From an uncultured Pelagibacteraceae bacterium (GTDB lineage: Bacteria; Pseudomonadota; Alphaproteobacteria; Pelagibacterales; Pelagibacteraceae), in NCBI GenBank assembly GCA_902611465.1, contig CACLZS010000001.1, positions 1 to 64,000 of the forward strand: a DNA stretch of 64,000 nt, written 5' to 3'. Of the stretch, positions 36,174-61,738 are shown one piece after another. The notes below the pieces were generated by a model. That model did no database searches, was not told where the DNA came from, and saw only the letters and a program-made list of their open reading frames with translations. Both the position numbers and the translations under genes were made by a program. Position 1 is the first letter of the stretch, and each line of letters opens with the position of its first letter.

Positions 36174-37589
36174 ATGAAAAATAATTTACAAAACAATAAA
36201 GCACTCGAAAAGAAAATTGATTGGCCAAGTATTAAAAAAGAATTACGTGAAAAACTTGGAAACGATATTTTTGAGAGTTGGGTAAAAAAAATTGAATTAG
36301 TTGAAGAATTTCATAATTACATATTATTTTCAGTCTCCACAAGATTTATAAGAGATTGGATAGTATCAAGATATTTAGACCAAATATTGCAGACAATTAA
36401 AGAATATAAAAAAGACTTGGTGAGGATTGAATTTACAATAAAAAATAATAAAGAAACTGAAATTACTGACACAAGTACTTTATCCCAAAATTCTTTAAAA
36501 ACTAATAATGATAATGTGTCGTTTATAAAAGACTCTTATCTTCAATATAATAGGATAGATCCAAATAAAAACTTTGAAAATTTCATAACTGGAGGGAGTA
36601 ACAAATTAGCATTTGAAGCATCAAAAAAAGTTTCCAAAGATATAGCCCATTATAATCCTTTATACTTATATAGTGGTGTAGGAATGGGTAAAACACACTT
36701 ATTAAACGCTATTGGTCTAGAATTGAAAGAAAAGAATAAAGTTATGTTCATATCAGCAGAAAGATTTATGTACCAATTTGTAAAGTCTATAAAATCAAAT
36801 GAAATGGTAAAGTTTAAAGATTACTTTAGAAATACAGATATTTTATTAATCGATGATATTCAATTCATGAATGGTAAAGAAGCAATGCAAGAAGAATTTT
36901 TTCATACCTTCAATGCATTATTAGACAAAAATTCACAAATAATAATTTCAGCAGATAGACCACCAAATAAACTCACTAGAATACAAGAGAGAATAAAATC
37001 TAGATTTTCAGGAGGTTTAGTTGTGGATATACAAAATCCTGATTATGAACTTAGATATAAAATTATTAAATCTAAAACTGAAGAATTAAAATTATCTTAT
37101 TCAAATCAGGTAGTAATTTCTGAGGAAATTCAAAAATTTTTAAGCACAGAAATAAAAACTAGTATTAGAGAATTAGTTGGAGCACTAAATAGAATTGTTT
37201 CATTCACAAGGATCTATAATAAAGTTCCGAGTTTGTCAGAGGTTAAAATAGTTTTAAAAGATTTGCTAAATCTTACAGAAAATAAAGTGGATATTGACAC
37301 AATCCAGACAATAGTTTGCAAATTTTATAAAATTAGCAAAAATGAAATGCTTTCACCAAGGAGATCAAGATACCTTGTGCGACCAAGGCAGACTGCAATT
37401 TATCTTGCTAAAATGCTAACATCTAAATCATTACCAGAGATAGGTAGATCTTTTTCTAATAGAGATCATACTACTGTAATCCACTCAGTTAAAACTATAG
37501 AGAGATTGAGAAAAGAGGATAGTGAATTAAATATTAATATTGATAGTTTAAAAAATAAGATTTTGTATAATAAAGAAAATGAAGTTTAG
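36174..37589 (+). CDS. dnaA: Chromosomal replication initiator DnaA
   Basis: YSGVGMGKTHLLNAIG Walker A, LLIDDIQFM, C-terminal SNRDHTTVIHSVKTIE DnaA-box binding signature. Confidence 0.97.
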   Translation: MKNNLQNNKALEKKIDWPSIKKELREKLGNDIFESWVKKIELVEEFHNYILFSVSTRFIRDWIVSRYLDQILQTIKEYKKDLVRIEFTIKNNKETEITDTSTLSQNSLKTNNDNVSFIKDSYLQYNRIDPNKNFENFITGGSNKLAFEASKKVSKDIAHYNPLYLYSGVGMGKTHLLNAIGLELKEKNKVMFISAERFMYQFVKSIKSNEMVKFKDYFRNTDILLIDDIQFMNGKEAMQEEFFHTFNALLDKNSQIIISADRPPNKLTRIQERIKSRFSGGLVVDIQNPDYELRYKIIKSKTEELKLSYSNQVVISEEIQKFLSTEIKTSIRELVGALNRIVSFTRIYNKVPSLSEVKIVLKDLLNLTENKVDIDTIQTIVCKFYKISKNEMLSPRRSRYLVRPRQTAIYLAKMLTSKSLPEIGRSFSNRDHTTVIHSVKTIERLRKEDSELNINIDSLKNKILYNKENEV

Positions 37590-38691
37590 TTTAAATCAAC
37601 AAGACCTTCAAAAATCTTTAAATTATTGTCAGGGTGTTATTGAAAAAAGAAGTACCTTGCCAATTCTTTCCAATGTATTGTTAGATGTAAGTAATGGTAA
37701 ACTAACAATTACAGCTACTGATCTTGATTTAATTTTTATTCATCAAATTCCAAATGTCGAAATAATAGAAGAGGGTAAAACTACTTCATCTTCATCAATA
37801 ATGTATGACATTGTTAGAAAGTTTTCATCTGGAAGTAAAATTAACTTTTCTAATCCTAGTGAAAATAAATTGCATTTAGAATCTGATAAATCTGTATTCA
37901 ACTTAAATTGTATTAGTGCTTCTGAGTTTCCGTTAACAGATGAAAACTTTAATGAAAATGAGTTTTCGATTAAATCAAAAGAGCTACTAAAACTGTTAAA
38001 TAAATGTAAATTTTCAGTATCTAACGACGAAACAAGACATTATTTAAGTGGAATTTTTTTACATCAGACAGAAGTTGAAGATAAAAATTTCTTAACAGCC
38101 GCAGCTACTGATAGTCATAGAATGTCTATTTCAAAGATTAGATTACAAAATAAAGTTCAATTTGATCAGATAATTTTACCAAAAAAGACTATTTTTCAAC
38201 TTTGTTCATTACTAGAGGACTATGAAGGTGAAGTTAAAATATCAAATATAAAATCAAAAATTAAATTTGAAATTAACAATAGTATATTGATATCTAAACT
38301 TATTGATGGAAAATTTCCAAACTACGTACAGGTAATACCTAAAGAAAACCAAAAAAAATTAGAAGTTGATTTAAAATTATTTTTAAATTCAGTAGATAGA
38401 GTTGCTTCAGTCTCTTTAGATAAAAAAGATGGTGTAAAATTTAATCTTTCAAAAGATAATCTTGATCTTTCAGTTAATAATACAAATAGTGGTGATGGTA
38501 AAGAAAGCTTAGGTGTTAAGTTTGATCACGAGCTTGATATAAGCTTTAATTCTAGATATTTAATTGATGTTGCTTCCCAACTTGATGGAGATAGCATTGA
38601 GATTTATTTAAAAGATACAGGTTCACCAGCCTTAATCAGAGATCCAGCTGATTATGATAGTATATATGTTGTCATGCCAATGAAGGGCTAA
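37579..38691 (+). CDS. dnaN: DNA polymerase III beta subunit (sliding clamp)
   Basis: RSTLPILSNVLLDV, C-terminal YVVMPMKG; overlaps dnaA by 11 nt. Confidence 0.96.
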   Translation: MKFSLNQQDLQKSLNYCQGVIEKRSTLPILSNVLLDVSNGKLTITATDLDLIFIHQIPNVEIIEEGKTTSSSSIMYDIVRKFSSGSKINFSNPSENKLHLESDKSVFNLNCISASEFPLTDENFNENEFSIKSKELLKLLNKCKFSVSNDETRHYLSGIFLHQTEVEDKNFLTAAATDSHRMSISKIRLQNKVQFDQIILPKKTIFQLCSLLEDYEGEVKISNIKSKIKFEINNSILISKLIDGKFPNYVQVIPKENQKKLEVDLKLFLNSVDRVASVSLDKKDGVKFNLSKDNLDLSVNNTNSGDGKESLGVKFDHELDISFNSRYLIDVASQLDGDSIEIYLKDTGSPALIRDPADYDSIYVVMPMKG

Positions 38692-57745: not shown

Positions 57746-60700
57746 ATGAATCTAGATTTATTAGTTCCTGATATAGGAGACTTTGAAAACGTTGAAATTA
57801 TCGAAGTACTTGTAAAAAAAGGTGACAAAATCAATAAAAATGACCCTGTTGTCACTTTAGAAAGTGATAAATCAAGTGTTGAGGTGCCATCCAATTATGG
57901 AGGCACAATTGAAAATATAAATGTAAAAATTGGTGATAAAGTTTCAAAAGGTGATTTGATATTAACTCTATCTTCAGAAAATAAAGATGAAAACGAGAAA
58001 ATTAGCAAAACTTTAGATGAAAAAATTCCACCTTCAACCGAGAAATTAATAGAGGAAGCAGAAGCTACTACAAAACCTGATATAAAAGTTGAAAAAGAAG
58101 TTATAAAGCCAACACAAATCAAGCAAACAAGATTAGTTAATGAAGTTAAAATGGTCAGTAGTAACGATGATATTGATCCAACTGAAACTAAAGAGTGGTT
58201 AGATTCATTAAGTGCAGTTCTGCAAAATGATGGTTCTGAAAGAGCTCATTTTTTAATTAAACAATTAATTGATCAATCTTATAAAGCTGGATCTAAAATT
58301 CCTCATACTCAAACTACTCCTTACGTGAATACGATACCCCCCGAAGAGGAAAAAAGATCACCTGGAGATCAAAATATTGAACGTAAGTTAAGATCATTAA
58401 TTAGATGGAATGCTGCTGCCATGGTAGTAAGAGCAAATAAAAAACATCCTGAACTTGGTGGTCACATAGGAACATTTGCATCAGCTGCAACCTTGTATGA
58501 TGTTGGAATGAATCATTTTTGGCGAGCAAAAAATAATAAATTCGGAGGTGATCTAGTATATTTTCAAGGTCATAGTGCACCAGGAATGTATGCAAGAGCT
58601 TTTCTTGAGGGAAGACTAAATGAAAAGCAGTTAGATAGATTTAGACAAGAAGTACAAACTGGTGGACTTTCATCTTATCCACATCCTTGGTTAATGCCAA
58701 ACTTTTGGCAGTTTCCAACAGTTTCAATGGGTATTGGTCCTATGTTAGCAATATATCAAGCAAGATTTATGAAATACCTAATCAATAGAGGATTAATTAA
58801 AGATGAGGGAAGAAAAGTTTGGGCTTTTCTTGGAGATGGAGAAATGGATGAACCCGAGTCACTTGGGGCAATTGGTTTAGCGGCGCGTGAAAATTTAGAT
58901 AATTTAATATTTGTTGTAAACTGCAATTTACAAAGATTAGACGGTCCAGTAAGAGGAAATGGAAAAATAATTCAAGAATTAGAAGGTATTTTTCGAGGCG
59001 GTGGCTGGAACGTTTTAAAAGTTATTTGGGGATCTTATTGGGACTCACTTTTAGCAAATGATAAGACAGGACATTTAGTAAAAATCATGAATGAGACCGT
59101 AGATGGTGAATATCAAGCTTTTAAAGCAAGAAATGGACTGTATGTGAGAGAAAAGTTTTTTGGCAAATATCCTGAAACAACAGAATTAGTTTCATCAATG
59201 TCAGATACTGATATTTGGAGGCTTAATAGAGGAGGCCATGATCCTCATAAAGTTTATGCTGCATATGATAAAGCGGTCAATCACAAAGGAAGCCCTACAG
59301 TCATAATAGCCAAAACTATAAAAGGTTATGGTATGGGTAAAAGTGGTGAAAGTGTAAATACTACTCACCAACAAAAGAAATTGGATGTTGATGATTTAAT
59401 GTATTACAGGGATAGGTTTGATGTTCCTTTAACAGATTCTCAAGTCAAAAATATTGAATATTTCAAACCAGACGAAAACTCTGAAGAAATTAAATACTTA
59501 AAAAAAAGAAGATTAGAACTTGGTGGATTTATACCAGAGAGAACATCATATTCAAAACCGATTAAAGCCCCAGTTAAAGATATTTTTGATTTTATGAAAA
59601 AGTCTACTGGCGAAAAAGAAATGTCTACAACAATGGCATTAGTAAGAATGTTAACTAATCTTTTGAGAGATAAAAATGTTGCACCAAAATTGGTTCCAAT
59701 TATTCCCGATGAAGCTAGAACATTTGGAATGGAAGGTTTCTTTCAAAAAATAGGTATTTATGCTCATGAAGGTCAAAAATATGAGCCAGAGGACTCAGCA
59801 CAACTTTCATCTTATAGAGAAGAGAAAAGTGGTCAGGTATTAGAAGAAGGTATAACTGAAGCAGGTTCTATGTCATCTTGGATAGCAGCAGGAACAGCAT
59901 ATACAAATCATGATATTGAAATGATTCCAATTTATCTTTTCTATTCTATGTTTGGCTTTCAAAGAATTGGAGATTTTGCTTGGGCTGCAGGAGATAGTCA
60001 AGCGAGGGGCTTTTTAATTGGTGCGACTGCGGGAAGAACAACACTTGCAGGAGAAGGTCTTCAACACCAAGATGGTCATAGTCATTTGTTAGCATCAACA
60101 ATTCCAAACTGCATTTCTTATGATCCAACATTCCATTACGAATTAGCTGTGATTTTTAGAGAAGGTTTAAGAAGGATGCACGAAAAAAATGAAAATATTT
60201 TTTATTATATTACTACAATGAATGAAAATTACTCTCACCCTGAAATGCCAAAGGATTGTGAGGATGGAATTCTCAAGGGAATGTACAAAATTAAAGAAAC
60301 ATCAGGTTCTAAAGATGCAAAAATTCAATTATTAGGTTCTGGAACAATACTAAGAGAAATGATGGCAGCATCAGAAATTCTCAAAAAAGAATATCAGGTT
60401 GATAGTGAAGTTTGGAGTGTTACTAGTTTTAATGAGTTAAGAAAAAATGGAATGGAAGTTGAAAGATTTAACCTTCTAAATCCCGCAGAAACAAATAAAA
60501 AATCATATGTAGAGGAATGTTTAGGCAAACAACAAGGTCCTATCCTTACAGCCACTGACTATATGAGAATAAATGCTGATCAAATAAGACCTTTTACAAA
60601 AAAGAGCTTTTATTCGTTAGGTACTGATGGATATGGAAGAAGTGATACAAGAAAAAATTTAAGAAATTTTTTTGAAGTAGATAAAGAACACATAGTTGCT

Positions 60701-60811
60701 TATAGCCTTAGTGTTTTAGCAAACGAACAGCTTGTTGCATCAAAGTATGCTGAAGATGCAATCAAAAAGTATAAAATTGACAAAAACAAACCCATGCCAA
60801 CAAAAATGTAA
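57746..60811 (+). CDS. aceE: Pyruvate dehydrogenase E1 (homodimeric AceE type) with N-terminal lipoyl domain
   Basis: N-terminal LLVPDIGDFENVEIIEVLVKKGDKINKNDPVVTLESDKSSVEVPSNYGG lipoyl domain, then AceE (GGHIGTFASAATLYDVGMNHFWRA, YFQGHSAPGMYARAFLEGR, AFLGDGEMDEPES). Confidence 0.95.
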   Translation: MNLDLLVPDIGDFENVEIIEVLVKKGDKINKNDPVVTLESDKSSVEVPSNYGGTIENINVKIGDKVSKGDLILTLSSENKDENEKISKTLDEKIPPSTEKLIEEAEATTKPDIKVEKEVIKPTQIKQTRLVNEVKMVSSNDDIDPTETKEWLDSLSAVLQNDGSERAHFLIKQLIDQSYKAGSKIPHTQTTPYVNTIPPEEEKRSPGDQNIERKLRSLIRWNAAAMVVRANKKHPELGGHIGTFASAATLYDVGMNHFWRAKNNKFGGDLVYFQGHSAPGMYARAFLEGRLNEKQLDRFRQEVQTGGLSSYPHPWLMPNFWQFPTVSMGIGPMLAIYQARFMKYLINRGLIKDEGRKVWAFLGDGEMDEPESLGAIGLAARENLDNLIFVVNCNLQRLDGPVRGNGKIIQELEGIFRGGGWNVLKVIWGSYWDSLLANDKTGHLVKIMNETVDGEYQAFKARNGLYVREKFFGKYPETTELVSSMSDTDIWRLNRGGHDPHKVYAAYDKAVNHKGSPTVIIAKTIKGYGMGKSGESVNTTHQQKKLDVDDLMYYRDRFDVPLTDSQVKNIEYFKPDENSEEIKYLKKRRLELGGFIPERTSYSKPIKAPVKDIFDFMKKSTGEKEMSTTMALVRMLTNLLRDKNVAPKLVPIIPDEARTFGMEGFFQKIGIYAHEGQKYEPEDSAQLSSYREEKSGQVLEEGITEAGSMSSWIAAGTAYTNHDIEMIPIYLFYSMFGFQRIGDFAWAAGDSQARGFLIGATAGRTTLAGEGLQHQDGHSHLLASTIPNCISYDPTFHYELAVIFREGLRRMHEKNENIFYYITTMNENYSHPEMPKDCEDGILKGMYKIKETSGSKDAKIQLLGSGTILREMMAASEILKKEYQVDSEVWSVTSFNELRKNGMEVERFNLLNPAETNKKSYVEECLGKQQGPILTATDYMRINADQIRPFTKKSFYSLGTDGYGRSDTRKNLRNFFEVDKEHIVAYSLSVLANEQLVASKYAEDAIKKYKIDKNKPMPTKM

Positions 60812-61738
60812 ATGTCTGATCAATCAAATAAAATATCTGCAAGTCCAAAAGTTAGAAAATTTGCAAGAGAGCTGGGAGTAGATATAAATAATGTTAAGGG
60901 AACAGAAAGATCAGGTAGGGTTGTTGAAAAAGATTTAAAAGATTTTGTCTCATCTAGAATCAATCATCCTCAGAATAATAGTGAAAGACAAAAAGAAAAA
61001 ATTATTAAAAGCGAATATCAACATTCAGATTTTGGGGAAATTGAAATTAAAGATATTCCTAGAGTAAAAAAAATAGCAGCTCCACATCTTGTAAATTCGT
61101 GGACAAATATTCCACATGTAACCAATCATGATGAAGCTGATATTACAGAAATGGAGGAATTTAGAAACACAATAAAAGATAATTATACAGGAGAAAAAAT
61201 AAAAATTACTCCTCTTGCATTTATTATTAAAGCATTGGTGCTTTCACTAAAAAAATTTCCATCATTTAATTCATCAATTGATGATATTGAAAATGGCAAG
61301 ATTACTTTTAAAAAGTATTTTCATGTTGGTATCGCGGTTGATACTCAACATGGACTTATGGTTCCTAAAATTAGAGATGCTAATCAAAAAGATATCAATG
61401 AGTTAAGTGAGAAATTAAAAAAAGTAAGTGATGATTGTAGAAACTTAAAAATTGATAAAAAAGAGTTCTTTGGTGGATCAATGACCATCACAAGCTTAGG
61501 TGGCATAGGTGGTTCATTTTTTACACCAATAATTAACTTTCCAGAAGTTGCTATACTTGGCGTTGGTAGAAGTTATAAAAAACAGGTTTTTATGGATGGT
61601 AAATTTATTCCAAGAACCATGCTTCCATTATCCCTCTCATATGATCACAGAATTATAGATGGTGCTGAGGCTGCCAAATTTAATAATGAATTAAAAGATA
61701 ACCTTGGTTCTAATTTTGCATATAATTTGAGTAAATGA
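60812..61738 (+). CDS. aceF: Dihydrolipoamide acetyltransferase (E2), peripheral-subunit-binding plus catalytic domain only
   Basis: ASPKVRKFARELGVDINNVKGTERSGRVVEKDL (PSBD); SLSYDHRIIDGAEAAKF catalytic motif; no lipoyl domain in the 308 aa. Confidence 0.93.
   Translation: MSDQSNKISASPKVRKFARELGVDINNVKGTERSGRVVEKDLKDFVSSRINHPQNNSERQKEKIIKSEYQHSDFGEIEIKDIPRVKKIAAPHLVNSWTNIPHVTNHDEADITEMEEFRNTIKDNYTGEKIKITPLAFIIKALVLSLKKFPSFNSSIDDIENGKITFKKYFHVGIAVDTQHGLMVPKIRDANQKDINELSEKLKKVSDDCRNLKIDKKEFFGGSMTITSLGGIGGSFFTPIINFPEVAILGVGRSYKKQVFMDGKFIPRTMLPLSLSYDHRIIDGAEAAKFNNELKDNLGSNFAYNLSK

Follow-up and report, generated by a model that had tools for sequence, protein, structure and literature searches.

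A lipoyl domain on the homodimeric pyruvate dehydrogenase E1 and repeated loss of the E2 lipoyl domain in Pelagibacteraceae

Domain architecture of the aceE-aceF locus

The window analyzed here, a stretch of 64,000 nucleotides from an uncultured Pelagibacteraceae bacterium, carries adjoining genes for the E1 (AceE) and E2 (AceF) components of the pyruvate dehydrogenase (PDH) complex (Table 1). Public matches belong to single-cell genomes and metagenome-assembled genomes (MAGs) of the Pelagibacteraceae and to Candidatus Pelagibacter ubique HTCC9565, i.e., to SAR11. Elsewhere in the window, dnaA and dnaN adjoin at positions 36174-38691, and the chromosomal origin may be near.

Table 1. Features of the aceE-aceF locus, in coordinates of the window
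Feature	Position	Strand	Remarks
aceE gene	57746-60811	+	1021 aa
AceE lipoyl domain, aa 1-78	57746..57979	+	PF00364 match aa 6-75, E 6.4e-19
K42 codon AAA, candidate lipoyl-lysine	57869..57871	+	Motif ESDKSS; all 84 E1 lipoyl domains from the 82 family representatives have Lys
AceE linker, flexible, Lys/Glu-rich, aa 79-140 (~62 aa)	57980..58165	+	Hypervariable across relatives
Conserved linker motif PPSTEKLIEEAE, aa 95-106	58028..58063	+	Kept in 64/82 representatives
AceE homodimeric E1p core, aa 139-1019	58160..60802	+	TIGR00759; end-to-end alignment to 1l8a
aceF gene	60812-61738	+	308 aa
AceF E1/E3-binding domain (PSBD), aa 9-47, near the N-terminus	60836..60952	+	PF02817 aa 9-42
AceF acetyltransferase core, aa 80-298, DHRIIDG, His279	61049..61705	+	PF00198, E 1e-74

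The AceE protein combines an N-terminal lipoyl domain, a linker and a full homodimeric E1p. The lipoyl domain is recognized by PF00364 both within the whole protein and, with an E-value of 3.5e-20, in the isolated N-terminus, and it matches all three lipoyl domains of E. coli AceF (7b9k) as well as the E3-borne lipoyl domain 5u25. The AlphaFold2 (AF2) model, with pLDDT mostly 70-85 over residues 1-80, has a hairpin and strand pattern around K42, which lies within the motif ESDKSSVEV. Judged by its fold and by the lysine in the DK hairpin, the N-terminus of AceE is thus a PF00364 lipoyl domain, and lipoylation of K42 is predicted. The remainder of the protein scores 1438 bits with TIGR00759 (cut-off 860; model positions 2-883 of 885), which identifies it as an equivalog of this family, and does not score high enough for TIGR03186, the exception model. 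In the alignment to the E. coli homodimeric E1p 1l8a, which covers residues 141-1018 of AceE, the ThDP and active-site residues are retained; among them, the histidine H407 corresponds to H541 and is invariant. The first part of this core (residues 141-182) aligns with residues 6-47 of the E. coli E1 (9h1n_C), a segment that was solved together with a PSBD-containing piece of E2. The AF2 model of full-length AceE, built on 27 sequences, is poor (pLDDT 41), so that only its lipoyl domain was used.

The AceF protein begins almost directly at the PSBD, which matches the solved PSBDs 9h1n_A, 4qoy_E and 1ebd_C and is the usable part of its AF2 model (pLDDT 75-80 for the PSBD; 46 for the full-length protein, based on 22 sequences). 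Its catalytic core aligns with that of E. coli AceF (7b9k) and carries SYDHRIIDG from residue 276. Matches to PF02817 and PF00198 above their cut-offs, together with the DHRxxDG motif, assign AceF to E2p by its binding domain and core. A profile search of the whole protein gave no PF00364 match, and the window AceF therefore does not carry the lipoyl arm of a canonical PDH E2. With TIGR01348 it scores 333 bits, under the cut-off of 552, which would be expected if the lipoyl part covered by this model is absent.

The preliminary description of the locus, made from the nucleotide sequence, had proposed the same layout for both proteins, i.e., a lipoyl domain, linker and full homodimeric E1p in AceE and a 308-residue AceF reduced to a PSBD and a core with DHRIIDG. 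The profile matches bear out both assignments, and the proposed lipoyl-lysine codon, like all other positions and motifs it gave, proved to be exact.

Distribution and evolutionary history of the fusion

Among the Pelagibacteraceae, 178 genomes out of 198, representing all 12 genera, encode AceE, and among the matches listed in this family nearly all begin at model position 1-5, thus including the lipoyl domain. The fusion occurs in each of the 12 genera; chance is therefore excluded, and the architecture is kept in relatives as the preliminary description required. In four genomes of the same genus (G009, G529, G567 and G591; 92-97% complete), AceE was not detected, which may reflect PDH-less lineages or gaps. 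Family f2 of the same order yielded no AceE in the genomes sampled. In the phylum sample, AceE is present in 162 of 399 genomes, and among the matches listed none outside the family extends into the lipoyl region proper. None of 44 non-family AceE proteins has a lipoyl domain (32 pairs searched with the lipoyl HMM and 12 further E1s picked for unusually long frames and checked singly), and AceF possesses one to three lipoyl domains in all 32 outside pairs. Neither the class sample nor the phylum sample thus yielded a fusion outside the Pelagibacteraceae.

We further counted lipoyl domains in 172 non-redundant aceE-aceF pairs of the family and found one on each protein in 115 pairs and one on AceE alone in 45. 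The other pairs have two on AceE and one on AceF (6), one on AceE and two on AceF (2), two on each (1), none on either (2), or one on AceF alone (1). In both pairs with none, a lipoyl domain sits on an abutting upstream open reading frame (ORF), split off by a frameshift in the linker, and in the single pair with a domain only on AceF the aceE gene is cut by the contig end. Every intact AceE thus carries a lipoyl domain, no sampled genome has lost both domains, and no loss from E1 was seen. The AceF proteins without a lipoyl domain (47 of 172 pairs) start directly before the PSBD and retain the catalytic histidine. In one lipoyl-less clade (L015, L021, L227, L230), DHRxxNG replaces DHRxxDG. 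Two tandem N-terminal lipoyl domains are found on AceE in genera g5 and g288 (L040, L041, L207, L209-L212). In L205, L206 and L207 (g282, g288), AceF has a second, degenerate lipoyl-like domain in which the lysine is absent (DDENS, DEENA, DDESS).

It is hardly conceivable that this architecture arises from an assembly or annotation artefact, in which the lipoyl domain was mis-joined and aceF truncated. Indels do occur in single-cell genomes and MAGs, and two split genes were found (L060 and L204), in which a frameshift in the linker separates the lipoyl ORF of aceE from its E1 ORF; the split is probably a sequencing indel but could be real. However, identical junctions are shared by dozens of assemblies made independently of one another, and the complete one-contig genomes G012, G268, G358 and G158 as well as the isolate HTCC9565 also carry the fusion. 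The truncation of aceF by a frameshift, which the preliminary description had named as a possible objection, was rejected together with the artefact: the junction with aceE is seamless (TAA directly followed by ATG), and orthologs with the same start are present in many independent genomes.

The history of the two domains was reconstructed on a tree of the concatenated E1 and E2 cores from 82 family representatives and nine outgroup pairs. All fused E1s group in a single, fully supported clade. The lipoyl state of E2 changes 10 times on this tree, with at least eight changes forced by well-supported branches, and a second tree method gave the same numbers. Since all outgroup AceFs carry a lipoyl domain, these changes are mainly losses, although within-operon recombination could mimic some of them. 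The E1 fusion therefore has a single origin, which lies at the base of the Pelagibacteraceae or earlier, and the E2 domain was then lost repeatedly, on at least eight occasions; the fusion is an ancestral trait of the family that was never lost in our sample. The AceE lipoyl domain shares 58% identity with the family's own AceF lipoyl domains, as compared to 45% with those of outside AceFs and 37% with SucB, suggesting a copy from the neighboring gene. This favors the family's own AceF as the probable donor, whereas a tree of the lipoyl domains, with 78 columns, is too short for proof. The initial suggestion that the domain had moved from E2 to E1 holds insofar as AceE bears it and the window AceF has none. 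The domain was, more exactly, copied to E1 and then lost from E2 many times: there was a single gain on E1, most AceFs keep their own domain, and the losses from E2 number at least eight. Genome streamlining, brought up in the preliminary description, is a hypothetical cause of these changes.

The AceE lipoyl domain as the probable only swinging arm

The AceE lipoyl domain is under purifying selection, with median dN/dS values of 0.05 for the clade of the window and of 0.08 over all lipoyl-less lineages, as compared to 0.19-0.82 in the linker; the dN/dS of the AceF core is 0.07. The SDKSS motif is invariant among the E1 lipoyl domains, as is the lysine. The preliminary description had made its reading depend on the absence of a separate lipoyl-bearing PDH E2. 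The assembly to which the window belongs (1.18 Mb, 38 contigs, 80% complete) encodes three PF00364 domains, namely those of AceE, AccB and SucB (the gene of the last lies next to sucA and lpd), and two E2 catalytic domains, in SucB and in the window AceF. Its one Pyr_redox_dim match corresponds to an Lpd of 464 aa, which does not include a lipoyl domain. The same set was found in each of 15 searched genomes with a lipoyl-less AceF (86-99% complete, 14 of them at least 92%), which cover several independent losses and in which the full lipoyl/biotinyl PF00364 domains are exactly those of SucB, AccB and AceE. Genome G550 has one additional weak, partial match. A hidden lipoyl-bearing PDH subunit encoded elsewhere is thus ruled out in the sampled genomes, and there is no other candidate PDH lipoyl domain in them.

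From these sequence comparisons, it is very likely that Pelagibacteraceae with a lipoyl-less AceF possess a PDH complex whose only swinging arm is on E1 and serves a bare E2 core in trans. Points against this reading are the incompleteness of the window's own genome, a trend in linker length that is not significant once kinship is considered (see below), and the lipoyl domain of SucB, which could serve in trans. The last of these would give a shared-arm complex, in which the SucB domain visits the bare AceF and the AceE domain is auxiliary. Such an arrangement has a counterpart in Corynebacterium glutamicum, where the PDH and ODH form a hybrid with common lipoyl domains (PMC7568260) and OdhA depends on the AceF lipoyl domain; moreover, no E2 besides AceF and SucB is encoded, and lpd adjoins sucB. 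We nevertheless consider a shared arm very unlikely, as the AceE domain was never lost, keeps its lysine and is subject to purifying selection even in lineages whose E2 has none; the domain that proved dispensable is that of E2; and the AceE domain resembles the lipoyl domains of AceF, not that of SucB.

It is also very unlikely that the AceE domain is a non-lipoylated docking or regulatory module and that PDH complexes with a lipoyl-less AceF are inactive. This possibility draws on the linker, which likewise holds a conserved non-catalytic motif, but it is at odds with the invariant lysine and SDKSS motif, with intact catalytic residues and selection in both E1 and E2, and with the presence of the lipoylation genes (LipA in five of five genomes and LipB in four of five, the window's own being among those with both).

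If the AceE domain is the arm of the complex, LipB and LipA would lipoylate K42, and AceE would decarboxylate pyruvate and reductively acetylate the lipoyl group carried by the same chain or by the other chain of the dimer. The domain would then swing on its linker of about 60 residues to the bare AceF core, where the acetyl group would pass to CoA, and the lipoyl group would be reoxidized by the Lpd encoded beside sucAB. By homology to 9h1n and 4qoy, the AceE segment just past the linker (residues 141-182) may dock on the PSBD kept by AceF, and AceE would be held on the core because this contact persists. With the docking segment and the PSBD both retained, the arm would leave just before the E1-PSBD joint, nearly as in a normal complex although from the other partner, a geometry that would allow visits to the E1, E2 and E3 sites. 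Under this mechanism, the number of arms would follow E1 occupancy and not core size.

The linker itself contains a stretch of 12 residues, PxxTExIIxEAE, which is conserved despite the hypervariable remainder and is also present in the basal genera. AF2 places a low-confidence helix at AceE residues 96-107; the motif is a candidate docking helix. It is likely that the combination of a homodimeric E1 bearing the only arm with a bare E2 arose in at least eight independent instances following a single gain on E1, with this conserved linker helix positioning the arm. As would be expected, AceE linkers are also longer in pairs with a lipoyl-less AceF (median 61 aa, as compared to 50 aa in the others; p 6e-6 in a rank test that ignores kinship). 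Kinship-paired contrasts point in the same direction 4.3 times as against 0.1 in the opposite one, out of eight, with a median p of 0.125 that is not significant, and a link between linker length and loss of the E2 domain is suggestive only.

Comparison with other lipoyl-dependent complexes

In the textbook PDH, the lipoyl arm belongs to E2, the core of the complex, and the E2 subunits of Zymomonas mobilis, Neisseria and Alcaligenes keep lipoyl domains of their own. The E. coli AceEF system (1l8a, 7b9k, 4qoy, 9h1n) shares with the window a homodimeric E1p, a PSBD and catalytic core on E2, an E1 docking segment and a separate Lpd, but its three lipoyl domains all belong to E2 and its E1 is without one, whereas the window has one on E1 and none on E2. 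A lipoyl domain on a partner of E2 is also reported for Mycoplasma hyopneumoniae, where the E3 (PdhD) carries it and is the reported lipoylated PDH subunit (Matic 2003; PMC7873978); in the Pelagibacteraceae the putative arm is on a homodimeric E1, with many independent E2 losses within one family. According to a study cited in PMC7873978 (FEMS Microbiol Lett 1999), the E1-beta of Z. mobilis has an additional lipoyl domain, although its E1 is heterotetrameric and unrelated to the homodimeric AceE. The E3 of Neisseria meningitidis and Alcaligenes eutrophus, as cited in the same paper, represents another non-E2 subunit with a borrowed lipoyl domain, and the AceE domain has a sequence match in 5u25; in these two organisms the domain is on E3. 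Finally, the acyltransferase domain of C. glutamicum OdhA lacks its own lipoyl domain and is served in trans (PMC7568260), but the serving domain belongs to another E2, AceF, whereas in the Pelagibacteraceae it would be that of E1. Within the open-licence literature we found no published lipoyl domain on a homodimeric E1 and no E2 lipoyl loss in SAR11, an absence that is not proof.

A bacterial family that ranks among the most abundant in the ocean would thus tie the PDH arm to E1, and the E1 arm together with the repeated loss of the E2 arm would amount to a rearrangement of the classic PDH design. Natural lineages with both arms, such as those of the G012 or HTCC9565 type, or with the E1 arm only represent a ready comparison set, in which questions usually approached by engineering become testable: whether the arm must be tethered to the core, whether arm number follows E1 occupancy, and what linker length is needed. 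For annotation, it should be noted that the lipoyl-less AceF scores too low for the curated threshold of the family to which it belongs and has the appearance of a truncated protein.

A genomic study of SAR11 IIIa gives aceEF and additional aceE copies but mentions neither the fusion nor the E2 loss (PMC10030771). In our sample, L034 and L048 represent a further AceE-like E1, about 884-902 aa long and devoid of a lipoyl domain, which was also obtained as the second match in G011, G013, G018, G027, G477, G463 and G502. No aceF adjoins the gene at L034 or L048, and for L034 the scores with TIGR00759 and with the exception model TIGR03186 are equal.
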